From the IMG/VR virus record IMGVR_UViG_3300037493_004418, positions 1 to 46,323 of that record: 46,323 nt of DNA. One strand, 5' to 3'. Position 1 is the stretch's first letter. Each line of letters opens with the position of its first letter. Below the pieces are notes generated by a model. The model had not been told where the DNA came from. It made no database searches and saw only the letters and a program-made list of their open reading frames with translations. The stretch is from a virus. Positions 3,370 to 46,323 of the stretch are shown in pieces. The position numbers and the translations under genes were made by a program.

Positions 3370-4131
3370 TTATTTTTTATCATCAATAGAAATTAATGTT
3401 CTATTTTGAAAATATTTTATTTTGTCACCAATTTTTGCGTTTTTATATTCTTGAATAAATTCTTGAATTTGGTTTTCATTCCATCTGATTGAAGCTGCTG
3501 CATTCTTGAATTTATTTTCAATGTCAGTTCTAATCATTGAATAATGATCCATTAAAAGTGAATCATCCATTACAAAGATGTGTGTTGACGTGTTTACCTT
3601 AACAGATGGATCAACAAGAACTGGATATTTTACAGATGATGAAATGCTGGTTAATGGGTACATTTTATGTATGAATGGCATATAATATGATTCAATTGGT
3701 TCTAAAATCCAGTTTTTTTGCTTGTAATATGTGCGCATTCTAGTCACAATTAGATCATATTGATCTGAATTAATTATTTTTTTTCCTTCCAGAATCATTT
3801 CAGGTGAATAAAAATGATCAGCAGCAGCCATAATGAAGTGTGTTGAACCTTCTGATTTTGCATGTTGAATCATCATATTGTGTTTTACACGTTCATTTTC
3901 CTTGGTTGAAAGCGTTAAATCAGGTGTAAATTCATGAATTTCAAAGTTTAACGCCTGTTGTGTATTAAAATCAATTAATGGACCATTAATGAAGTTATGA
4001 TGTCCTTTATTTGATATGGTTTGAATGAAAATTGATATTTGATCAACATGATTTTTGTGATGCTTAATTGAATCAAGTAACATTTGAACATCATCACCAG
4101 TCCAAAATGTGTATAGTAAGTGCAATTTCAT
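3370..4131 (-). CDS. Glycosyltransferase-like protein (GT-A fold)
   Basis: Probably transfers a sugar from a nucleotide donor. The N-terminus (MKLHLLYTFWTGDDVQMLLDSI) has the beta-strand and helix pattern of family 2-like transferases. IMAAADHFYSP near residues 155-165 lies where the metal-binding DxD motif is expected, but only one Asp is present, so catalysis is less certain than for its neighbours. At 253 residues it is typical of small phage transferases. It is the last gene of the minus-strand accessory block and reads towards the terminator at 3283-3318. Acceptor unknown. Confidence 0.6.
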   Translation of the reverse strand: MKLHLLYTFWTGDDVQMLLDSIKHHKNHVDQISIFIQTISNKGHHNFINGPLIDFNTQQALNFEIHEFTPDLTLSTKENERVKHNMMIQHAKSEGSTHFIMAAADHFYSPEMILEGKKIINSDQYDLIVTRMRTYYKQKNWILEPIESYYMPFIHKMYPLTSISSSVKYPVLVDPSVKVNTSTHIFVMDDSLLMDHYSMIRTDIENKFKNAAASIRWNENQIQEFIQEYKNAKIGDKIKYFQNRTLISIDDKK

Positions 4132-4154
4132 AATTTATTTTTGTTTGGTTTATT

Positions 4155-4553
4155 TTAAAAAGGAACATCACTAACTGGATTCTGTTTTACAATTTTAGTT
4201 GTAAATTCCATTTTTAGATTGTACCTGTATTCTAGTGATTTTTTAACGTTTTGTGTATTTGTAAGAACTTGAATATTTCCGATTGTGTAACCAAGATGTT
4301 CTTCTTTTCTATCAATGTGAAAAGAATCTTTTGTTTTTCCTTTGCCAAGCATGTATTCTGTTTTAACACAAAACGCTTCAAATTGTTCAAAGGTCAAATC
4401 AAATTGTTTTCCACGTCTTTTTGCATTTTGTCTTAAATTATTGAATGCATTTTTAATGGGGTTTTCAGTTCTGAATTTCAATTTCAAACACTTGTGGCAT
4501 AATCCAGAACAGTGTTGATTGTTTCTGCAATAGTTGGTTACACATTTTTGCAT
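4155..4553 (-). CDS. HNH endonuclease
   Basis: Probable free-standing homing-type endonuclease. The core FHIDRKEEHLGYTIGNIQVL followed by TNTQN and KK fits the HNH signature: His and Asp of the first strand, the GY..GN turn, and the terminal Asn/Lys. The N-terminus has paired cysteines (C4, C9, C15, C19, C22) that may form a zinc knuckle. At 132 residues it has the usual compact size. It sits among glycan genes with no obvious functional link, which suggests that it is a selfish insertion and may have helped the block spread. Confidence 0.75.
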   Translation of the reverse strand: MQKCVTNYCRNNQHCSGLCHKCLKLKFRTENPIKNAFNNLRQNAKRRGKQFDLTFEQFEAFCVKTEYMLGKGKTKDSFHIDRKEEHLGYTIGNIQVLTNTQNVKKSLEYRYNLKMEFTTKIVKQNPVSDVPF

Positions 4554-4665
4554 CTGTTTTTTTTTTTTTGCGGTTTCATTTTTCTGTATTTATTAATTGT
4601 AAATATATAAAAATATATTAAAGTATATTTATTTTTATGTAAACTTTATTTAAAACATCAGTAAA

Positions 4666-5178
4666 TCAACACTTTAACTTTGCAGGGTTTCCATAAACAA
4701 TTTCATTTTCATTCACATTCTTAACAACAACAGATCCAAGTCCAACAAGTGAATTTTCACCAATTTGAATCCTATTTCTAATTGTAACACCAAGTTTTAT
4801 TTTTGATTTCCTTCCAATCACAGCGTGTCCACCAATGATTGTTCCAGTGCAAATTTCACAATCATCACCAACAAACGCATCATGTCCAACGTGTGAATGT
4901 GCCATTATTATATTGTTGTTGCCAATAAAAGTTATTTTATTCTGTTCAAAAGGGCGTTGGATTGAAACGAATTCACTAATTACATTATTATTTCCAATCT
5001 GAACATGGCCTTTAAAATCCTTTTGTGATACACCACGCATTTCACCATTTGATCCAATAACGCAATATGCACCAATTGTGTTTCCTGTTCCAAGAATAAC
5101 GTTTGGATGAATTATTGCTGTTTTGTGAATATCGTTTCCATCAATATTGATCCAATCATGGTTGTATAAATCATTCAT
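4666..5178 (-). CDS. LpxA-like hexapeptide-repeat acyltransferase
   Basis: Left-handed beta-helix transferase that probably acetylates or acylates a sugar. Many hexapeptide repeats are visible from residue 18 on (IHPNVI, IGAYCVIG, IGNNNVI, IGENSLVG). MAHSHVGHDAFVGDD near residue 100 closely follows the catalytic His segment of LpxA (AHIAHDCTVG), and GGHAVIG matches the next coil. At 170 residues it lacks the C-terminal helical domain of true LpxA (about 262), and it ends in YGNPAKLK, as sugar O-acetyltransferases do. It lies 5 bases downstream of the amidotransferase gene, so the two are co-transcribed. Substrate unknown. Confidence 0.8.
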   Translation of the reverse strand: MNDLYNHDWINIDGNDIHKTAIIHPNVILGTGNTIGAYCVIGSNGEMRGVSQKDFKGHVQIGNNNVISEFVSIQRPFEQNKITFIGNNNIIMAHSHVGHDAFVGDDCEICTGTIIGGHAVIGRKSKIKLGVTIRNRIQIGENSLVGLGSVVVKNVNENEIVYGNPAKLKC

Positions 5179-5183
5179 TTTTT

Positions 5184-6524
5184 CTATATTTTATTTGTTA
5201 TAAATTCAACCCACTGATCATTATTCATGTATGGATTTGAAAAACCTTTTTTCATTCCATTAATCACATCTGGATGCAGTCCTGAAATACCCTTCAAGAT
5301 ACGTTTATTTTTTAAATATTCATCCGGAAGTGATAAAGCAAAATCAACAAGATCATTATCAAGTAATGGATACCTTGTTTCCATTGTATGAAATCCAGCA
5401 ATTGCATCTTCAATGTTCAGAACACCATTCAAAAATTTTAAATCATAATCAAAATGTGAAATGTCATATTGCGGACCATCATTTGATGTTCTTTTGATTA
5501 CTTTATTTATTGGTTTGTTAATTCTGTGTGGATAACCACCAAAGAATTCATCACCACCAGCGCCCGAATAAATAACGGTGCAAAATTTTGAAGCAAATTC
5601 AGTTAATGCAAAATTTGTGTAACTTGAACCAACTTTTGGATCCTGGATGCATTGAAATAATTTATTTGAATATTCATTGAATAGTTCTTTGTTGCAAATC
5701 AATGAATAATGTTTACCGGTTGAATTTAATTTTATGTTTTCAATTTCAGAATAGTTTGAATCCACATAATCCATTGAAAAGCTATATTCAGGCTTCATGA
5801 ACCTTGCAATTATTCCAGAATCAATTCCACCAGACAAGAAAACACAATCATTTAGTTCTGTTTTGTTTCTATCACATGATTGAATGAATAATTTCTTCAA
5901 CTGAATCTTTGCTTCATTGTAGGTAATATTAATTTTTTCAGGAATTACAAGTGATAATTTTCTTGTTCTGGTTATTCCTTTATAAATTGAATTTACATTC
6001 ATAACACCAAGATCGTATTTGAATTGGTTCAATTTATCTTGATCAATTTCAATTTCAGGACATGCAGCAAGAATTGATTTTATTTCTGAAGCAATGAATA
6101 TTTTATTTCCTTTTTTATATTCATATAGTTTTTTGATTCCAAATTTATCAGTGAATGTGGTCCATTCTGTTCCATTAAAATATAATACAGCAAAAAAACC
6201 ATTCAATTCATTTAGTTTTTTTCCTTTGAATTTATCCAGGAACTTTGCCAATAATTCTGTATCACATTTTGAATCTAATTTGATGTTGTATTTTTCAGCT
6301 AATTCATTGTAGTTTGAAATAAATCCATTCATCCACACCATATAATTATTTGATGTGAATGGTTGCATTTTAGCTGTTGAATCGGTTATTGGAAGCCAAC
6401 TGAAATTCACAAATGAATTTGCAGTTTTTGTTACACCTTGAAAAATTCCACGTTTTGATGAATTATCAATCATTGATTGAATATCTTTCAAAGAACCATT
6501 TAAAACAGCGTTTATTCCACACAT
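5184..6524 (-). CDS. Asparagine synthetase (glutamine-hydrolysing)-like amidotransferase
   Basis: Both catalytic halves of the AsnB family are present. The N-terminal glutaminase starts MCGI, with Cys2 as the expected nucleophile, and contains LNGFFAVLYF and ASEIKSIL. The synthetase half has the PP-loop SGGIDS near residue 230, SGAGGDEFFGGYP and ETRYPLLDNDLVDFAL. It should use glutamine ammonia to amidate an acyl-adenylate. At 446 residues it is about 100 shorter than E. coli AsnB (554), as in amidotransferases of glycan clusters. With glycosyltransferases and an LpxA-like protein beside it, amidation of a sugar acid or aminoacyl-sugar is more likely than free asparagine synthesis. Its start overlaps the upstream gene by 13 bases. 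Confidence 0.88.
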   Translation of the reverse strand: MCGINAVLNGSLKDIQSMIDNSSKRGIFQGVTKTANSFVNFSWLPITDSTAKMQPFTSNNYMVWMNGFISNYNELAEKYNIKLDSKCDTELLAKFLDKFKGKKLNELNGFFAVLYFNGTEWTTFTDKFGIKKLYEYKKGNKIFIASEIKSILAACPEIEIDQDKLNQFKYDLGVMNVNSIYKGITRTRKLSLVIPEKINITYNEAKIQLKKLFIQSCDRNKTELNDCVFLSGGIDSGIIARFMKPEYSFSMDYVDSNYSEIENIKLNSTGKHYSLICNKELFNEYSNKLFQCIQDPKVGSSYTNFALTEFASKFCTVIYSGAGGDEFFGGYPHRINKPINKVIKRTSNDGPQYDISHFDYDLKFLNGVLNIEDAIAGFHTMETRYPLLDNDLVDFALSLPDEYLKNKRILKGISGLHPDVINGMKKGFSNPYMNNDQWVEFITNKI

Positions 6525-7450
6525 GTGATTTGTTTTAAAATTTTATCAGCAATAGGATCGTTTATAAATGATGTATTTTCCCACAATGCAAATGGTGTCA
6601 TGTTCACATTTGATTTAATATCGAATGCATAAACATTAAATTGTTTTAATGAAAAAATAAATGATGTGTGTGGTGTTGTTTTCAATTTATCTTGCATTGA
6701 ATTATCAAGAATTTTTGAGTGTTTTATTTGCCATGGTTGCCAGTTCCATTCATTCATTAATCTTGCAGAAATCAACCTACCAGCACCGCATGTGTGGCCA
6801 ATTCTTCTGGAATCAGAATATCCACCCCAATAAGACATTTTTTTCGATATAGTGTCGTAAAAATACCAATCCAACACTGCAACATAATCAACTTGTAGGT
6901 TTATTTGTTCAACATAAACACAAAGAAGTTCATTTGTAATTAGATCATCAGAACCAACACACAAAACATAATCACATTGAAGTTTTCCAGCAAGTATTGT
7001 TGTAATGTTCATTTTTGAAGCCAATGGATCATTTTCAATTTCAATATAAATGAATCCATGATTTTCAACCATGTGTTTTGATTTTACACCTTCAGAACCA
7101 GCAACAATTACAATTATTTCCAAATCAGGATGATTCAATTTCTTTGTTGCATTTGCAAACATTTCAAAAACTTCAGGACGTTTCCAGCATGCAGTGACAA
7201 TTGCCATGCGTTTTTTCCATTTTGGAAGGTTTTTTATTTTTGAATCTTCAATGACTTTATTTGCTTGAATTTTGCATTGTTGTTGTTCTTCTGGATCAAT
7301 TTCACCATCGTATTCTTTTATGAATCCATTTGCAATTAAACTTGGAATGTTTGCACGAATGAAAAAAGATTCTAAATACACTTCATTTCTTTTTAGAAGT
7401 TTTCCGCCACGTGAACTGATGGTTTCATGCTTTATAATGTATGATTTCAT
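6512..7450 (-). CDS. Glycosyltransferase with N-terminal FluMu/gp35-like domain
   Basis: Residues about 80-300 form a GT-A transferase: KRMAIVTACWKRPEVFEMF begins the nucleotide-binding fold and CDYVLCVGSDDLITN provides the DD metal site. The first 45 residues are unusual. They resemble the N-terminus of the phage's own head-region protein at 27708-28100: NIPSLIANGFIKE here against NIPDLIKNGFLSE there, with further matches upstream. That small domain occurs in Mu gp35-type proteins. The fusion may place the enzyme on the virion or its assembly intermediates. It overlaps both neighbouring minus-strand genes, indicating tight co-translation. Confidence 0.8.
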   Translation of the reverse strand: MKSYIIKHETISSRGGKLLKRNEVYLESFFIRANIPSLIANGFIKEYDGEIDPEEQQQCKIQANKVIEDSKIKNLPKWKKRMAIVTACWKRPEVFEMFANATKKLNHPDLEIIVIVAGSEGVKSKHMVENHGFIYIEIENDPLASKMNITTILAGKLQCDYVLCVGSDDLITNELLCVYVEQINLQVDYVAVLDWYFYDTISKKMSYWGGYSDSRRIGHTCGAGRLISARLMNEWNWQPWQIKHSKILDNSMQDKLKTTPHTSFIFSLKQFNVYAFDIKSNVNMTPFALWENTSFINDPIADKILKQITCVE

Positions 7451-8085
7451 TTTAAAACGGTTGTGTAAAAGTTAAATGATTCTTGATCCATGTGTTTTTG
7501 AATGAACAATGATTCATTATCTTCATTCACGTATCTATGAAGATAATCAATATGATTCCTTCCACCACATTTTCCAACACCATGTTTAATTCCAATTGAA
7601 ATTATCTTTTCAGGTTTAAAAAGTATTCCTTTTAAAGTTTTCCAAAGATGTAAATCTGTATATGGTTCATGATCCACGCACCAATGGAAATCAAGGTCAG
7701 CTTTCAAAAGTGTATTCATAGCTGATGCACGCCTTGAATGATTCATTATTAAATGCGCTTTTATTCCAATATGGTAATAAATAGTGTAATTAGTTCCAAG
7801 TATATCAGGCTTATCACATTCAATCCATTTATTAACCATTGTTTCAATGTAATCAGATGAATAATAATCATCATTTTCAATCAGTAAAACACAATCAAAG
7901 TTTTTGTTTCTGAAATATTCATATCCTATTCTGTAACGTTGTGTAATATCAACATTATGATTCAACGGTTCATAATTCACAACATGAATATGCGCTTTCA
8001 TTGTTTGGTTTTCCATCATTCTTTTGCAATTATCCAAGAATTTTGGGCGGTCATTTCTATCTGGTATTAAAATTCCTATCTTCAT
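7447..8085 (-). CDS. Glycosyltransferase family 2-like protein
   Basis: The first gene of the minus-strand block. MKIGILIPDRNDRPKFLDNC is a typical GT2 N-terminus, and CVLLIENDDYYSSDYIE near residues 66-81 carries the metal-binding DD pair. A later WCVDHEPYTDLHLW segment could hold the catalytic Asp. At 212 residues it is a minimal catalytic domain with no membrane segment, so it is probably cytosolic. Its stop overlaps the next start (ATGA). The ATG at 8085 lies 4 bases after a minus-strand TAAATTTG promoter box, so its mRNA may be leaderless. Confidence 0.8.
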   Translation of the reverse strand: MKIGILIPDRNDRPKFLDNCKRMMENQTMKAHIHVVNYEPLNHNVDITQRYRIGYEYFRNKNFDCVLLIENDDYYSSDYIETMVNKWIECDKPDILGTNYTIYYHIGIKAHLIMNHSRRASAMNTLLKADLDFHWCVDHEPYTDLHLWKTLKGILFKPEKIISIGIKHGVGKCGGRNHIDYLHRYVNEDNESLFIQKHMDQESFNFYTTVLK

Positions 8086-8089
8086 GAAA

Positions 8090-8146
8090 CAAATTTATAA
8101 AAAATTCCGTAATTAAAAAGAAATATATTAATATCATATATTTTTG
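8090..8146. promoter_or_regulatory. Bidirectional late promoter element, copy 1
   Basis: The 24 bases at 8090-8113 recur exactly at 24870-24893. Read on the minus strand, the left end gives TAAATTTG, a Bacteroidota -7 box, 4 bases from the start of the glycosyltransferase gene. On the plus strand the element contains ATTCCGTAAT, and TATTTTTG follows at 8139-8146, the -7 box for the sheath operon, with 26 bases between CCGTAA and the box. No TTTG -33 element precedes it, so the conserved ATTCCGTAAT may bind a phage activator. Confidence 0.75.
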
Positions 8147-8169: not shown

Positions 8170-9678
8170 ATGGCTAGTGATTCAGTAGGACAAGAAAGAA
8201 TTTCACAAGTAGTTGGTTACAAGATTACAAAAGGAAATTTCAACGAAAACACCCCTAATTTACCACAGCGTGTGGTTATTATTGGTGAAGCCAATGATGC
8301 AAATCAAGCTGATTTAGTTCTTGAAGAAACTGAAATATTATCAGCACAACAAGCTGGACAATTATATGGTTTTGGTTCACCGTTGTATCTTGCAATGCGA
8401 ATTTTACGCCCCTTAAATGGCGGTGGACTTGGTGGCATTCCAACTTTCGTTATTCCACAAGAAGCGGCTGTTGGTGCAACAGCAAAAGTTCTTGAATTAA
8501 CACCAACAGGTGTTGCAACAGGAAATGGAACACACACTGTTATTTTAAATGGTAGATCTGGACTTGATTCTGTATTTTATAATTTCAGCATTGTTTCTGG
8601 TGACACAACAGCTGATATTACAGCTAAAATTGAAGATGCAATCAATAATGTTCTTGGCGCGCCTGTTGTGGCTGTTTCAACTGATTATGAAGTTACATTG
8701 ACTTCTAAATGGAAGGGTTTAACATCAAATGATTTAAACATTTCTATTGAAACAAACGGAAATGATCTTGGAATAACATATGCAACAAATGTAAATGCTG
8801 CTGGATCAGGAACACCAACAATTCCTTCTGATTTGCTTGGAACTGAATGGACAACAATTGTGTTGAACACATATGGAACTGTTACTGCTGTTATGGATTC
8901 TTTGGAATCAATCAACGGTATTCCAGATCCTACAAATCCAACTGGAAGATTTGCTTCAATAGTAATGAAACCATTTATTGCATTGACTGGAAGTGTTTCA
9001 ACAGATCCGTCAGCAATCACAGATGCACGCCTTGATGATGTCACAATTGCATTATGTCCAGCATTTGGATCAACTGGTTTTCCTTTTGAAGCTGCTGCAA
9101 ATATGTGTTCATTGTTTGCACGTCAATCAAATGACAATCCGCACTTGGATGTATCTGGAATGTCTTATCCTGATATGCCAGTTCCAACAACACTTGGAAC
9201 ATCTGGAACATATGATTTCCGTGATTCAATAGTGAAAAAAGGTTGTTCAACTGTTGATTTGGTTGCTGGTAAATTCAAAATAATGGATTTTGTCACAACT
9301 TATCATCCAGTAGGTGAAATACCACCACAATTCAGATATTGCCGATCATTAGTGATTGATTTCAACATGCGTTTTGGTTATTTCTTATTAGAACAAATCA
9401 ATGTTGTTGATCATGCAATTGCAGCAAACGAAGATATTACATTTGCATCAAAAGTTGTTAAGCCTAATCAATGGAAATCAATCTTGTTTGGTTATGCTGA
9501 TGATCTTGCTAAAAGATCGTTGATTGCTGATACTGCATTCATGAAAGAATCAATTGTTGTAAATTTATCAACTGTAAATCCTGACAGATTTGAAACATTC
9601 TTTAAATATAAAAGATCTGGATTCATTAGAATTGCATCAACAACTGCTGAAGCTGGTTTCAATTTCGGTTCAAATTAA
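8170..9678 (+). CDS. Contractile tail sheath protein
   Basis: Forms the contractile outer tube of the myovirus tail. The N-terminus matches Mu gpL-type sheaths: ISQVVGYKITKGNF, NLPQRVVIIGEAND and YGFGSPLYLAMRIL (about residues 10-80). The C-terminal half (MDFVTTYHPVGEIPP, RYCRSLVIDFNMRFGYFLL) is the conserved sheath polymerisation domain. The length of 502 residues is normal for the family (Mu gpL is 495). A variable insertion around residues 100-200 is probably surface exposed. It is followed directly by the tube gene, the usual order, and is the first gene after the late promoter at 8139. Confidence 0.92.
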   Translation: MASDSVGQERISQVVGYKITKGNFNENTPNLPQRVVIIGEANDANQADLVLEETEILSAQQAGQLYGFGSPLYLAMRILRPLNGGGLGGIPTFVIPQEAAVGATAKVLELTPTGVATGNGTHTVILNGRSGLDSVFYNFSIVSGDTTADITAKIEDAINNVLGAPVVAVSTDYEVTLTSKWKGLTSNDLNISIETNGNDLGITYATNVNAAGSGTPTIPSDLLGTEWTTIVLNTYGTVTAVMDSLESINGIPDPTNPTGRFASIVMKPFIALTGSVSTDPSAITDARLDDVTIALCPAFGSTGFPFEAAANMCSLFARQSNDNPHLDVSGMSYPDMPVPTTLGTSGTYDFRDSIVKKGCSTVDLVAGKFKIMDFVTTYHPVGEIPPQFRYCRSLVIDFNMRFGYFLLEQINVVDHAIAANEDITFASKVVKPNQWKSILFGYADDLAKRSLIADTAFMKESIVVNLSTVNPDRFETFFKYKRSGFIRIASTTAEAGFNFGSN

Positions 9679-10737: not shown

Positions 10738-12771
10738 ATGAAGTTTGTAATTCCTTCAATATTTACTGCCGTTGATAAATTCACAGGACCATTATCAAAA
10801 ATGTCTGGGAGTGCTTCACAATTTGCAAGTAAACTTGACAGGGATTTCAGAAAAGCAGGACAAACAGCATTTTCAATTGGAAGGAATGCAGGGGCGGTTG
10901 GATTGGCAATTGCAGCACCTTTAGGATTGGCGGTGAAACAGGCTGTTGATTTTGAAGATGCAATGGCTGATGTTGGAAAAACTACTGGATTAAGCGGAAA
11001 AAAACTTGAAGATCTTGGAAGTTCCATTTTATCAATTTCAGGAAAAACAAGAACTTCAATTGATGATCTTGTAAAGATTGGTGAAATTGGCGGCCAACTT
11101 GGTATTGCTTCAAAAGACATGGTTTCATTCATTGCATCAGCTGACAAATTCAATATTGCATTGGGCGCTGATTTCGCTGGTGGTGTTGAAGAAGCTGTTT
11201 CATCTGTTGGAAAAATAAAAGCACTATTTGGTGATACTAGAAATTTAAATATTTCTGATGCTATTATGAAAACAGGATCAGCAATCAATGAATTGGGTGC
11301 TGTTGGTGCTGGAACATCAGCAAACATCACTGATTTCACATTAAGATTAGGTGCGCTTCCAGATGCATTGAAACCTTCAATATCAAACACATTAGCATTA
11401 GGAACATTCCTTGAAGAATTAGGAGTAAATGCACAGATTGGTGCTGGCGGTATGACTAACTTTCTTTTAGTTGCAGGTCAAAATATTAGTGGATTTGCAA
11501 CACAAATGAAGATTTCATCTGTTCAGGCAAAAGCATTATTAAAACAAGATCCAACAGAATTTGCCAAACGATTTGCAACAACATTCAAAGGAATGGCACC
11601 TGAAGTGATGGCGGCTAAACTTCAGGATCTTAAGCTTGGATCACAAGAAACAATTAAAGTCATTGGTGCGCTTGGCTCGTCAACTGAAAGATTGACAGAA
11701 CTACAAAAAGTTGCAGCAGGATCATTTGGAAAAGGGACCAGCTTACAATCTGAAGCTGCAAAGAAGAATGAAACAATGGCTGCAAAAATGGGTATTTTAA
11801 GAAACAATGTAAAATCATTATCCATAACAATGGGTAATGCATTATTGCCTGTCATAAATTCAGTTGTTGAATCAGTAATGCCATTTGTAAAAGGAATTGC
11901 AGACTGGATTAATAGAAACAAATCATTATCAGCAACAATAATCAAAGTTGTTGCAGGTGTTGGATTGTTGGCACTTGGAATTTCAGGTGTTGCATTTGCT
12001 GTTGGAATATATCAAAAAGCTGTTGTAATTGCACAAGCTGTTCAAATGGCGTGGAATGCTGCAATGGCTGCGAATCCAATTGGTTTGCTGGTTCTTGGAA
12101 TCACCGCTGCTGTTGGTGCTGTTTATTTATTAACAAAGGCGTTTAGCGCAATGAGTACAGCAGAATCAATTGGAAATGAAGTAAGGGAACGTGCGCTTGA
12201 AAAGACACTTGATCAACGTGTTGAAATAGTTCAATTATTTGGTGCATTAAGAAATGCAAAGGCTGGAACAGATGCATATAATGAAACATTGAAAAAAATT
12301 GATGCTATTCAACCAGGAATAACAAATAAATACAATCTTCAAGCTGGTGCATTAAGAAATATAAATGCAGCTGAAAAGGAATTAACAGCAAGCATCATGA
12401 AGCGTGCTGAAGCTGAAGTGCGTGCCGAAATGCTGAAAGAATCTATCAAGGAAAAAATGCGTTTGCAACAGGAAGGACCATCAATGTTGCAACAAATAAT
12501 AGGTGCTGGAAATATTGGTGTTGCTACTGGTTCAAATAGAAAAGATATTGCAGAACAGCAACAAAGAATCAATGTTTTAAGCACTGGTGTTGCAAAGGAC
12601 CAAATGCAGGCGGCAAATCCTGAAAAAGCAAAACAAAATGGAATTATAAACAGATCTGAATCTGTTGAAAAACAAAAGATTCAATTTGAATTTTTAGGAA
12701 TGCCAGATTGGATGCAACCAACAGTTAGAAGTTCAGCAAAAGCATTGCCAAAATTATCAACAACATCATAA
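10738..12771 (+). CDS. Tail tape measure protein
   Basis: Sets tail length and probably helps DNA cross the host envelope. It starts with the typical phage-minor-tail pattern (FIPSIFTAVDKFTGPLSKMS without exact identity claimed), then a long helical region with VDFEDAMADVGKTTGLSGKK near residues 65-85, as in TP901-type tape measures. Two hydrophobic segments near residues 400-425 (VVAGVGLLALGISGVAFAVG) and 447-468 (IGLLVLGITAAVGAVYLL) could insert into membrane. The C-terminal third is charged and coiled-coil-like. At 677 residues it predicts a tail of roughly 100 nm by the usual 1.5 Å per residue rule. It follows the frameshifted chaperone. Confidence 0.9.
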   Translation: MKFVIPSIFTAVDKFTGPLSKMSGSASQFASKLDRDFRKAGQTAFSIGRNAGAVGLAIAAPLGLAVKQAVDFEDAMADVGKTTGLSGKKLEDLGSSILSISGKTRTSIDDLVKIGEIGGQLGIASKDMVSFIASADKFNIALGADFAGGVEEAVSSVGKIKALFGDTRNLNISDAIMKTGSAINELGAVGAGTSANITDFTLRLGALPDALKPSISNTLALGTFLEELGVNAQIGAGGMTNFLLVAGQNISGFATQMKISSVQAKALLKQDPTEFAKRFATTFKGMAPEVMAAKLQDLKLGSQETIKVIGALGSSTERLTELQKVAAGSFGKGTSLQSEAAKKNETMAAKMGILRNNVKSLSITMGNALLPVINSVVESVMPFVKGIADWINRNKSLSATIIKVVAGVGLLALGISGVAFAVGIYQKAVVIAQAVQMAWNAAMAANPIGLLVLGITAAVGAVYLLTKAFSAMSTAESIGNEVRERALEKTLDQRVEIVQLFGALRNAKAGTDAYNETLKKIDAIQPGITNKYNLQAGALRNINAAEKELTASIMKRAEAEVRAEMLKESIKEKMRLQQEGPSMLQQIIGAGNIGVATGSNRKDIAEQQQRINVLSTGVAKDQMQAANPEKAKQNGIINRSESVEKQKIQFEFLGMPDWMQPTVRSSAKALPKLSTTS

Positions 12772-24536: not shown

Positions 24537-24571
24537 AATATAAAAGCATGTTTTAAATGTGCTTTTATATT
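24537..24571. terminator. Bidirectional terminator between portal and ribbon-helix-helix gene
   Basis: A perfect 12-bp stem (AATATAAAAGCA with TGCTTTTATATT) and an 11-base loop end both the plus-strand portal and the minus-strand small gene, whose stop codon lies inside the right arm. Confidence 0.7.
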
Positions 24572-24855
24572 ATTTTATGAAGGTTTTGTTTGACGTATGA
24601 AGCAACTGTTTCACCTTCCTTCCATGCTTTTTGCTCTAGTTTAGAAATAATTGATTGATCAATATCTTGAAGTGAAATGTTTTTATTCTGAACTTTTAAT
24701 TTTCCATTTTCTGAAATTGTCCTTAAATGTTTTTTTAAGAACGTACACAAAACCATTCCATTTTCTTTTGCAAGATCCTTCAATGAGTTTTTCAGATTAA
24801 TATCAATATTTGTAATCCTTATTTCTTCGCCTGCATGATGGTTATTCTTTGCCAT
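24565..24855 (-). CDS. Tandem ribbon-helix-helix-like DNA-binding protein (accessory)
   Basis: A 96-residue protein inserted on the opposite strand between portal and protease genes. It appears to consist of two related halves: IRITNIDINLKNSLKDLAKE with a following FLKKHLRTI, and ISLQDIDQSIISKLEQKAWK with a following YVKQNLHKI. Each half has the beta-strand, helix, turn and helix spacing of ribbon-helix-helix domains, so one chain could form a complete DNA-binding unit, as in TraY. The gene shares its promoter element with the glycosyltransferase block. A regulator of the late promoter is an attractive guess, not a demonstrated role. Confidence 0.6.
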   Translation of the reverse strand: MAKNNHHAGEEIRITNIDINLKNSLKDLAKENGMVLCTFLKKHLRTISENGKLKVQNKNISLQDIDQSIISKLEQKAWKEGETVASYVKQNLHKII

Positions 24856-24869
24856 TTATCTTTTTTCTT

Positions 24870-24926
24870 CAAATTTATAAAAAATTCCGTAATATGAAAA
24901 GCGTTTTATTTTAAAATATAATTTTG
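24870..24926. promoter_or_regulatory. Bidirectional late promoter element, copy 2
   Basis: The 24 bases at 24870-24893 are identical to 8090-8113. The plus-strand -7 box TAATTTTG (24919-24926) lies 26 bases after CCGTAA, exactly as in copy 1, and both boxes are followed by CTTCA. On the minus strand TAAATTTG lies 14 bases from the ribbon-helix-helix gene start. The plus-strand ATG of the protease gene is only 6 bases after the box. Confidence 0.78.
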
Positions 24927-24932
24927 CTTCAT

Positions 24933-25937
24933 ATGAACGAAATTTTATTATACGGTCCAATATGGTCTGAATCATCTTCAATATTTATTAACGCTGTTAA
25001 TGAATTAGAAGGTGATAATTTAACAGTTCGTATAAATAGCGGTGGCGGTGAACCAACTTATGGATGGGGAATGGTTGCCAAATTTTCTGAATTTTCTGGA
25101 ACAAAGAATGTGAAAGTTGATGGATCAGCATATTCAATGGCGGCTTTTTTCTGCTGTTATTCTGATAATGTTGAATGTTTAGATGTATCACAATTCTTGA
25201 TTCACCGCGCTGCAATGTCGCAATGGTATGAACAAGAATACATGAGTGATTCAGAACGTGAAAATCTTTTGAATATAAACACGTCACTTGAAAAGGCATT
25301 CAGAAATAAAGTTGATGTTGCTAAATTTGAACAAATAAAAGGTGTAAAAGTTAAAGACATTTTTTCCATGGAAAATAGAATTGATGTTTTTTTGACTGCA
25401 ACTGAAGCAAAGCAAATTGGCTTAATTTCTAAAATTGTAACAATCACACCAAAGAAAAAAACTGAAATAAATGCATCAATGAATCTTATTGCTGCATCTT
25501 ATGGTTTTGACATTATGTCAATGAATAAACCAGCAATTGATTCTGCTGAAGAAAAAAAGGAATCCATAACAAGCAATTCTAAAACCCAAATAAAAATGAC
25601 AATTGAACAATTAAAAGCTGATCATCCTGAACTTTTTGTTCAAGTCACTGCATCAGCAATTAAAGAAGAAAAGGACCGTGTTGGTGCTTGGATGAAATTC
25701 ATTGGCGCTGATGCTGATGCTGTTGTAAAAGGTATTGAATCAGGTGAAAATCTTGGACAAACTGCAATGGCTGATTTTACAGTTAAGATGATCACTAATG
25801 CTGGAACGGTTGAAAGAATCGGTGCTGAAGGTGCAGCAGTAGTAATTGAAACAGAAAAACCAGAAGGTGTTGAAAAAACGGCTGCTGAATTGTTTCAAGA
25901 CAAAGTAAATGCTAGTTTAAACCCTGAAATTAAATAA
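24933..25937 (+). CDS. Prohead protease (ClpP-like) with C-terminal scaffold domain
   Basis: Head maturation protease. RINSGGGEPTYGWGMVAKF and KVDGSAYSMAAFFCCYSD are the oxyanion and catalytic-Ser segments of a ClpP/S49-like fold (Ser in AYSMAA near residue 70), and FLIHRAAMS near residue 89 gives the catalytic His. Residues from about 222 on (MTIEQLKADHPELFVQVTAS) form a helical scaffold-like domain. The start is ATG 24933; a TTG at 24924 is part of the promoter. The following genes are decoration protein and capsid, the lambda C-D-E order. The product is probably self-cleaved. Confidence 0.87.
   Translation: MNEILLYGPIWSESSSIFINAVNELEGDNLTVRINSGGGEPTYGWGMVAKFSEFSGTKNVKVDGSAYSMAAFFCCYSDNVECLDVSQFLIHRAAMSQWYEQEYMSDSERENLLNINTSLEKAFRNKVDVAKFEQIKGVKVKDIFSMENRIDVFLTATEAKQIGLISKIVTITPKKKTEINASMNLIAASYGFDIMSMNKPAIDSAEEKKESITSNSKTQIKMTIEQLKADHPELFVQVTASAIKEEKDRVGAWMKFIGADADAVVKGIESGENLGQTAMADFTVKMITNAGTVERIGAEGAAVVIETEKPEGVEKTAAELFQDKVNASLNPEIK
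25596..25937 (+). CDS. Possible nested scaffold protein (Nu3-like internal start)
   Basis: An in-frame ATG at 25596, after an A-rich stretch, would produce the 113-residue C-terminal domain of the protease alone. In lambda, scaffold Nu3 is made in this way from inside gene C. The domain begins MTIEQLKADHPELF, a typical independent start of scaffold proteins, and is helical and acidic. Translation from this start is inferred from the lambda parallel and the domain boundary only. Confidence 0.5.
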   Translation: MTIEQLKADHPELFVQVTASAIKEEKDRVGAWMKFIGADADAVVKGIESGENLGQTAMADFTVKMITNAGTVERIGAEGAAVVIETEKPEGVEKTAAELFQDKVNASLNPEIK

Positions 25938-27707: not shown

Positions 27708-28100
27708 ATGAAATACACCGTAATTGCTTTATCTGTTCAAGGTAAAGGAAAAAAGATTTTCAATGCTGGTGATGTTGTCACTGCTGAAAATTTTCCTGAA
27801 GGAAATATTCCTGATTTAATCAAGAATGGTTTTTTATCTGAAGGTAGTCCAGTTAAATTGGAATCTGAAGAATTGGAATCTGAAGAATTGGAATCTGAAG
27901 AATTGGAATCTGAAGAATTGGAATCTGAAGAATTGGAATCTGAAGAATTGGAAGATCAAGTAATTCTTAAAACGGATGAATTGAATAAAAAACAAATCAT
28001 TGCAAAATTGAAGGAATTAAGATCATTAAATGATTCAGTTGTGTTTGATGCGAATGATGATAAACAAACATTACTTGATTATTTAAATTCATTGGTTTAA
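27708..28100 (+). CDS. Head-region protein with FluMu/gp35-like N-terminus and LESEE repeats
   Basis: The first 45 residues (GKGKKIFNAGDVVTAENFPE, then NIPDLIKNGFLSE) resemble the small N-terminal domain of Mu gp35-type proteins. Residues 51-80 are six exact LESEE repeats encoded by a 15-base tandem repeat. The C-terminal 45 residues (LNKKQIIAKLKELRSLNDSV) look like a small SAP/HeH-type helical domain often at the end of such phage proteins. Position after the capsid suggests head completion, where lambda has gpFI, also a repeat-containing acidic protein. The stop overlaps the next ATG (TAATG). Confidence 0.7.
   Translation: MKYTVIALSVQGKGKKIFNAGDVVTAENFPEGNIPDLIKNGFLSEGSPVKLESEELESEELESEELESEELESEELESEELEDQVILKTDELNKKQIIAKLKELRSLNDSVVFDANDDKQTLLDYLNSLV
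27858..27947 (+). repeat. Six tandem 15-bp repeats inside the head-region gene
   Basis: The unit TTGGAATCTGAAGAA is repeated six times without a mismatch, coding LESEE. The unit is a multiple of three, so gain or loss of copies keeps the frame. Perfect identity suggests recent expansion. Confidence 0.95.
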
Positions 28101-28459: not shown

Positions 28460-29057
28460 TATTAATATTATAATTCCACAATTTAGGTTTGATTTAATTG
28501 CTGATAGGCTTGCAAGCATCATTGCACTTGAATTGAATTATCAAACAGCAGTTAGTTATGATGACACAATTGATGCAAAAGTTTTCATTGAACGTTCAAT
28601 TCCAATTGATGCTTCTGAACTTCCATTGGTGAATGTTGCATTTGCCGGTGCTGATTATGACAATAAAAAGCAAACATCAAAGGATGGTTCATATACATTT
28701 GAAATTGATGTTTACACAAAATCAAAAACTGATGCAACTGAAATGGCTGATAAAAAGTCAATCAAAGCATTGCAACGGATCCTTGGAATAATTAACTATG
28801 TACTTGAACATCCAGCATATAAAACACTTGATTTTGCACCAGGCTTTATTGCAACAACACTTGTTCAATCAATAAAAATTCAGGATCCAAAAGGTGCAAA
28901 AGATGCTGATTCAATCAAAATGGGACGAATTTCATTTTTTGTTCGTGTTTGCGAAACCACAACAGATCAACCAACAACAAATGTTTCAAGTTTAAACACA
29001 CAAGTTCAGATTGCTGAATCTGATCAAGGGTATTTTTACGAAGTTGTAAATTCATAA
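28452..29057 (+). CDS. Putative tail terminator / minor tail protein
   Basis: ATG 28452 overlaps the preceding stop (ATGAGTAA) and is preferred to a TTG 9 bases upstream. The 201-residue protein has an alpha/beta pattern (FDLIADRLASIIALELNYQT, PLVNVAFAGADYDNKKQTSK, DGSYTFEIDVYTKSKT) close to tail terminator proteins such as lambda gpU, which cap the finished tail. It is the last structural gene before the lysis genes. Similarity is at the level of pattern and position. Confidence 0.55.
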   Translation: MSNINIIIPQFRFDLIADRLASIIALELNYQTAVSYDDTIDAKVFIERSIPIDASELPLVNVAFAGADYDNKKQTSKDGSYTFEIDVYTKSKTDATEMADKKSIKALQRILGIINYVLEHPAYKTLDFAPGFIATTLVQSIKIQDPKGAKDADSIKMGRISFFVRVCETTTDQPTTNVSSLNTQVQIAESDQGYFYEVVNS

Positions 29058-29092: not shown

Positions 29093-29378
29093 ATGCAGTA
29101 TTTGGATATAATTTTTGCTTCAATTTTCGCTATAATAGGGTATTTTTTAAAGGATATTCATTCAAATTTTAAAGAACACAAAAAAAAGTAGTGACCAACA
29201 ACACTTGCAGTTCAGTGAAGAAGTTGGAAAATTAAAAGGAAAAATTGAAATGGTTCAACAGCAATCAACAAATGATATTAGCAGAATTGAACAATTAACA
29301 CAATTGAAACTTGACCAAATATCCAAAGATGTTTCAAAATTAAGTAAATTTTTACATCAATTCATAAATGCTAAATAA
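29093..29378 (+). pseudogene. Membrane-anchored coiled-coil protein split by a frameshift at eight A residues
   Basis: The first part (29093-29191) codes a 32-residue peptide, MQYLDIIFASIFAIIGYFLK then DIHSNFKEHKKK, i.e. one membrane helix and a charged tail, and stops just after an A8 run at 29180-29187. From 29187 a different frame (+1) is open for 63 codons: LQFSEEVGKLKGKIEMVQQQ, then ISRIEQLTQLKLDQISKDVS, a coiled coil, ending in TAA at 29376-29378 that overlaps the next ATG. Together they make a common phage protein type with an N-terminal anchor and a coiled coil. The split may be programmed frameshifting, a real mutation or a sequencing error in the A run. Confidence 0.65.
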
Positions 29379-46310: not shown

Positions 46311-46323
46311 ATAAATGCGAAGC
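46311..46323 (+). repeat. Terminal overlap with the first 13 bases
   Basis: The last 13 bases (ATAAATGCGAAGC) are identical to bases 1-13. A chance match of this length at both ends is very unlikely, so the sequence is a circular or circularly permuted genome with an assembly overlap. Confidence 0.85.

Follow-up and report, generated by a model that had tools for sequence, protein, structure and literature searches.

A candidate ribbon-helix-helix operator at fixed distance from the tail- and head-operon promoters of a group of Bacteroidetes phages

Introduction

The ribbon-helix-helix (RHH) proteins Arc and Mnt of phage P22 and CopG of plasmids read DNA with a beta strand, and their operators are composed of short repeated half-sites. 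Other small phage proteins, p4 of phi29 and C/Mor of Mu, bind upstream of late promoters that have poor upstream core elements, and p4 in addition acts as a repressor on the far side of the site to which it binds. The RHH protein AvtR of Acidianus filamentous virus 6 represses its own gene and can activate a gene across a shared intergenic region; it carries tandem RHH motifs in one small viral protein and binds imperfect inverted-repeat sites, of which there are eight in the genome (PMC5569661). The timing of late genes in Bacteroidetes phages is little known, and in the open-access literature that we searched we found no description of an RHH late regulator. Bacteroidetes promoters of the sigma-ABfr type consist of TTTG and TAnnTTTG elements, and transcription starts a few bases past the TAnnTTTG -7 box (PMC6847099).

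Here, we analyzed IMG/VR virus record IMGVR_UViG_3300037493_004418 (46,323 nucleotides, termed the window), in which a 24-bp element lies upstream of two structural operons. The promoters of these operons resemble sigma-ABfr promoters in having a TAnnTTTG -7 box and a predicted start a few bases downstream, and they differ from them in having no -33 TTTG, the place of which is taken by a putative RHH operator centered near -49. We propose that the element is probably the operator of a phage-encoded RHH protein that would aid transcription of the late operons and repress its own gene, and that such regulator-operator pairs would have diverged together throughout a group of related phages.

Results

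A 24-bp element precedes the tail and head operons

We found the 24-mer CAAATTTATAAAAAATTCCGTAAT exactly twice in the window, both times on the plus strand, and no third copy when up to 4 mismatches were allowed. No other dispersed exact repeat in the window is as long, and in 30 third-order Markov simulations the longest ones measured 15 to 21 bp, versus 24 bp here. Copy 1 precedes the tail sheath gene and copy 2 the head maturation protease gene, with the following features around them.

7447 to 8085, minus strand: gene for an accessory protein of 212 aa, divergent from the tail operon; no Pfam match
8090 to 8113, plus strand: candidate operator copy 1 (24 bp), exact repeat; -12 to +11 around the group-wide dyad position (base 8102)
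8090 to 8097, minus strand: putative TAAATTTG box for the gene at 7447 to 8085, overlapped by the operator; predicted start ∼8085, i.e., leaderless
8139 to 8146, plus strand: tail-operon promoter, -7 box TATTTTTG; start predicted at ∼8151, leader of ∼19 nt
8170 to 9678, plus strand: tail sheath gene, first of the tail operon (PHROG phrog_165, E = 8.9e-84)
24565 to 24855, minus strand: predicted tandem RHH regulator gene, 96 aa (HMM, profile match to RHH antitoxin structure 7e4j at E = 7e-5, and structure model)
24870 to 24893, plus strand: candidate operator copy 2 (24 bp), exact repeat; -12 to +11 around base 24882; identical in the nearest relative, G001
24870 to 24877, minus strand: putative TAAATTTG box of the RHH gene, inside the operator
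24919 to 24926, plus strand: head-operon promoter, -7 box TAATTTTG; start predicted at ∼24931, nearly leaderless
24933 to 25937, plus strand: head maturation protease gene, first of the head operon (PHROG phrog_2976, E = 4.4e-17)

The positions of the two copies agree to the base with a preliminary description of this DNA, as do the 26 bp that separate the CCGTAA end of the element from the -7 box in both copies, the CTTCA directly behind both plus-strand boxes, and the minus-strand box TAAATTTG formed by the other end of the element (8097 to 8090 and 24877 to 24870). That description placed the element between a minus-strand accessory gene and a plus-strand structural operon; the strands are as described, but the minus-strand gene beside copy 2 encodes the RHH regulator rather than a generic accessory protein.

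A sigma-ABfr-type TAnnTTTG -7 element is present at 8139 to 8146, at 24919 to 24926, and in most relatives, and we predicted the starts with a box-to-start spacing of 4 to 5 nt borrowed from PMC6847099. As described earlier, there is no TTTG ∼19 to 23 bp upstream of either window box, which is weak evidence for activator dependence because the -33 motif is barely visible in Flavobacterium johnsoniae promoters generally (PMC6847099). We rejected a promoter for a phage RNA polymerase, as an ordinary TAnnTTTG box lies downstream of the element and no polymerase is among the annotated genes.

Other observations concern the remainder of the window and other promoters. The sequence TATAATTTTTGCTTCA at 29105 to 29122, between an ORF ending at 29057 and one starting at 29378, resembles the late -7 box and has the same CTTCA discriminator, without the upstream element. 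The protease promoters of six relatives (G006, L159, L166, L172, L180, and L192; G and L numbers designate related phages) have a different -7-like core, approximately AATYTTCACA just before the start codon, which suggests another promoter type or host lineage. The gene for the 212-aa protein is part of a minus-strand accessory cluster (3370 to 8085) that also encodes an asparagine-synthase/glutamine-amidotransferase-like protein (5184 to 6524) and a protein with a weak family-2 glycosyltransferase match (6512 to 7450). A 15-bp tandem repeat (AATTGGAATCTGAAG) of ∼6 units occupies 27856 to 27950, within the ORF at 27708 to 28100. Both contig ends carry ATAAATGCGAAGC (1 to 13 and 46311 to 46323), as do both ends of G001; these are probably the true genome termini, either 13-nt cohesive ends or a short terminal repeat, and the window is therefore likely a complete phage genome.

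The gene next to copy 2 encodes a predicted tandem RHH protein

The 96-aa protein matches the HMM of its family with an E value of 1.3e-13 (domain 1, aa 6 to 50, 2.9e-11; domain 2, aa 56 to 96, 0.05), the HMM being built from single-domain members with a close relative of the window protein left out. Searched against the PDB, the family profile (A3) matched the VapB12 antitoxin (7e4j, E = 7e-5) and, more weakly, ORF56 (0.01), CopG (0.02), AvtR (0.055), and DinJ, and the PHROG matches of the family were Arc-like and CopG-like. A structure model of moderate confidence (pLDDT 72, pTM 0.34) has helix pairs in both domains and strands only at ∼52 to 63; its Foldseek hits were mostly RHH proteins, none below E = 0.1, with 7e4j at 0.9 Å over 39 columns. 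By sequence relationship, the product of 24565 to 24855 is thus predicted to belong to the RHH (MetJ/Arc/CopG) superfamily. Across the group, the products of these genes have one domain (∼60 aa) or two in tandem (∼95 to 135 aa), two motifs per chain being found in the window protein and, clearly, in the proteins of G025 and G041.

Most of the ∼90 loci that we examined have a small minus-strand gene between the portal and protease genes, pointing away from the protease promoter, and in ∼60 related contigs of Bacteroidetes phages an RHH gene occupies this place on the minus strand. The synteny is kept in relatives whose sheath proteins are 57 to 66% identical. Each whole contig bearing the element has exactly one RHH match, except for the partial contig G015, which has none. 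No close relative of the window RHH protein turned up when we searched for one, as the family diverges too fast, and the RHH protein of L198 had no tblastn match in named phage genomes. We also found no RHH protein in the stretches searched of Flavobacterium phages V156 and FL-1 and Cellulophaga phage phi38:2; the late genes of V156 and phi38:2 are all on one strand, and FL-1 has two small minus-strand genes. A type II toxin-antitoxin system with a CopG antitoxin was considered and rejected, as the RHH gene is the only one between the portal and protease genes and has no toxin partner, in the window and in relatives; the window protein scores 20.4 with Pfam CopG_antitoxin, under the cut-off of 28.

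The shared element differs from lineage to lineage

In the nearest relative, G001 (IMG/VR 3300027973_000078, ∼88% nucleotide identity), both copies of the element are present; copy 1 has changed at nothing but the nn bases of the minus-strand box (TATTTTTG), and TAnnTTTG is retained. Database-wide, the exact element with its box was found only in the window phage and in contigs of this relative; elsewhere in IMG/VR, exact-sequence searches gave chance-like matches, most of which fell within genes and among which the right spacing was not overrepresented. The preliminary description had suggested a search of relatives for ATTCCGTAAT-N26-TAnnTTTG. This literal search fails outside one lineage because conservation extends to position and geometry but not to the sequence itself.

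When we compared the sheath promoter with the protease promoter of the same genome, nearly every phage proved to have a shared element of its own, such as TTCCGTTATCAACGGAA in G034, AGCATCCAATTTGGATGCT in G026, CTGTCCCCTCTTTGGGGACAG in L211/L237, and five 11-bp AACGAGTACCT repeats in G030. In 27 of 33 genomes (four near-duplicates included), the within-genome similarity of the two promoters exceeded the 99th percentile of 1046 cross-genome comparisons, and whole-contig searches showed that the element is restricted to these two promoters in most genomes. In G030 (L277), a third AACGAGTACCT array at 12095 to 12137, between two minus-strand genes, is a possible third target.

The shared block reaches 63 to 95 bp in G007, G010, G020, L240, L241, and L232, which looks like copying of whole promoters and raises the idea that the repeat is a by-product of recent promoter-DNA copying or cassette insertion, with no regulator behind it. 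We regard this as very improbable, since many genomes match in operator and box only, with different spacers and flanks, and since the spacing is exact and the covariation specific (see below).

Genomes without an RHH gene generally lack the element. No shared element is seen in G005, L214, and L215, which are RHH-less contigs, and profile searches detected no RHH protein in G005, G027, G028, G035, and G036, among which G028 and G036 pass the similarity cut-off, but only via A-rich sequence. The one clear exception is G015, in which a 35-bp element is kept and the 39-kb partial contig has no RHH gene.

Dyad symmetry of the candidate operators peaks 36.5 bp upstream of the late box

We took the best TAnnTTTG-like box near each protease start and scored dyad symmetry at every offset upstream. 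In 30 nonredundant single-RHH genomes, mean symmetry peaked exactly 36.5 bp upstream of the -7 box (0.54, background 0.29), and offsets of 35.5 and 37.5 bp were at background level (both 0.28). The peak was again at 36.5 bp in all 49 RHH genomes (0.50; circular-shift permutation, P = 5e-5), in the sheath promoters alone, and in a further 9 genomes, a set not fully independent because some are close to earlier genomes. With the T of the -7 element placed at -12 (PMC6847099), the center of the dyad falls near -49. The window 24-mer is not palindromic, yet it sits in the group-wide dyad register at both promoters, its TTCC half-site being out of register with palindromic operators. A proposed division into palindromic operators in single-RHH genomes and asymmetric ones in tandem-RHH genomes was dropped, as the data gave only a weak trend (0.54 versus 0.44 at 36.5 bp).

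The geometry bears on the main rival of an activating role, namely, that the RHH protein is a repressor only, which would silence its own gene and the late promoters at the start of infection or in a carrier state, the late genes coming on upon relief. Most named phage RHH proteins in the libraries are repressors (PHROG Arc-like and CopG-like), and, as pure repression would have it, the operator reaches into the -7 box of the regulator gene or the stretch immediately upstream of that box. This reading is nonetheless unlikely in our view: the dyad is fixed at 36.5 bp from the late box, upstream of the core promoter, in dozens of phages with different operators, and an exact distance of this kind is needed for contact with polymerase and not for steric repression. 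The spacing from the dyad center to the regulator's own start codon is loose by comparison (2.5 to 103.5 bp), and no integrase is seen among the annotated window genes. An RHH protein that activates the late promoters fits the exact geometry.

The element was also described earlier as a candidate bidirectional promoter, which holds for the window and G001 only; in 6 of 19 RHH-bearing genomes, the gene upstream of the sheath operator is co-oriented with the sheath gene. This leaves the plus-strand late promoter, rather than any divergent gene, as the conserved target of the sheath operator. In relatives, the 212-aa accessory protein (45 to 57% identity by tblastn) is encoded at varying positions and on either strand. 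The broader claim, that the two late promoters carry a new control signal for late genes, gains support, the signal now appearing as part of a group-wide regulator-operator module.

Predicted contact residues of the RHH protein covary with the operator

In 34 single-RHH genomes, the three strand residues predicted to contact DNA correlated with the 4-mer content of the operator (Mantel r = 0.40, P = 2e-4, a test that controls only partly for phylogeny), and the correlation was unchanged when conditioned on the rest of the protein (partial Mantel r = 0.40). The rest of the protein did not follow the operator (r = -0.05), and neighboring control regions gave r ≤ 0.07. When strand position 3 is R, an R or K at position 5 goes with CCC/GGG in 15 of 16 cases versus 1 of 8 for other residues (P = 1.8e-4), a rule that was spotted before being tested and with which, among new genomes, L315 agrees and L339 disagrees. 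The covariation thus indicates, indirectly, that the strand residues determine the DNA site.

It is mainly on account of this covariation that we name the RHH protein, and no other, as the probable reader of the element. Were the element read by a different activator, of phage or host origin, or by an alternative sigma factor, with the neighboring RHH protein repressing only itself, one would expect genomes such as G015 (L302) and L140, in which the dyad element stands at 36.5 bp with no RHH gene adjacent; these two have the half-site TTTCATTG in common. We hold another reader to be quite improbable, since the contact residues, and not the rest of the protein, track the operator sequence and do so in the operator region only, since RHH-less genomes are mostly without the element, and since sites that differ from phage to phage would be unnecessary for a factor supplied by the host.

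Discussion

That the element is the operator of the RHH protein is well supported by these comparisons. In the mechanism that we propose, the phage-encoded protein (24565 to 24855) would bind the 24-mer at the tail- and head-operon promoters and, with its dyad 36.5 bp upstream of TAnnTTTG, would assist the host RNA polymerase at promoters that have no -33 box. At copy 2, the bound protein would cover its own TAAATTTG box (24877 to 24870), a position that suggests autorepression. In relatives, the regulator's box often lies 11 to 20 bp beyond the dyad center, so that a bound protein would mask the -33 region there. The repeat, the RHH genes, the lineage-specific elements, the spacing, and the covariation are computed results, to which we add RHH binding and autorepression by inference and activation from the geometry; late timing is presumed from the structural genes that the tail and head operons contain. 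Gene position and geometry would form a module conserved across the group of Bacteroidetes phages studied here, in which regulator and operator diverged jointly into many lineage-specific pairs.

A wider reading, to which we give an even chance, is that a whole group of Bacteroidetes phages runs its head and tail operons by fast-diversifying RHH activators, each of which fits an operator of its own, always placed at the same distance, so that late genes answer only to their own regulator. If true, this would amount to a late-stage identity check in mixed infections and would provide a natural library of mutually orthogonal activator-promoter pairs. The module offers a directly testable mechanism for late-gene timing, and in uncultured phages it could mark late promoters. 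The naturally coevolved pairs might reveal a recognition code, and orthogonal switches for Flavobacterium or Bacteroides could be derived from them.

Among known systems, Arc, Mnt, and CopG have the RHH fold that is predicted for the window protein, but these repressors overlap the core promoters of regulatory genes, whereas the window site lies at a fixed distance upstream of two late structural operons. The activators p4 of phi29 and C/Mor of Mu have other protein folds and do not come from Bacteroidetes phages, and we know of no comparable array of divergent, matched pairs for late activators of their kind. Unlike the window protein, AvtR acts in an archaeal virus with the archaeal transcription machinery, and the two are not known to be homologous apart from the RHH fold; its description (PMC5569661) includes neither a late structural switch nor a lineage-specific diversification of operators, as proposed for the window group. 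AvtR is nonetheless the nearest working analogue, being a small protein of a virus in which, as predicted for the window protein, two RHH motifs follow each other in a single chain.
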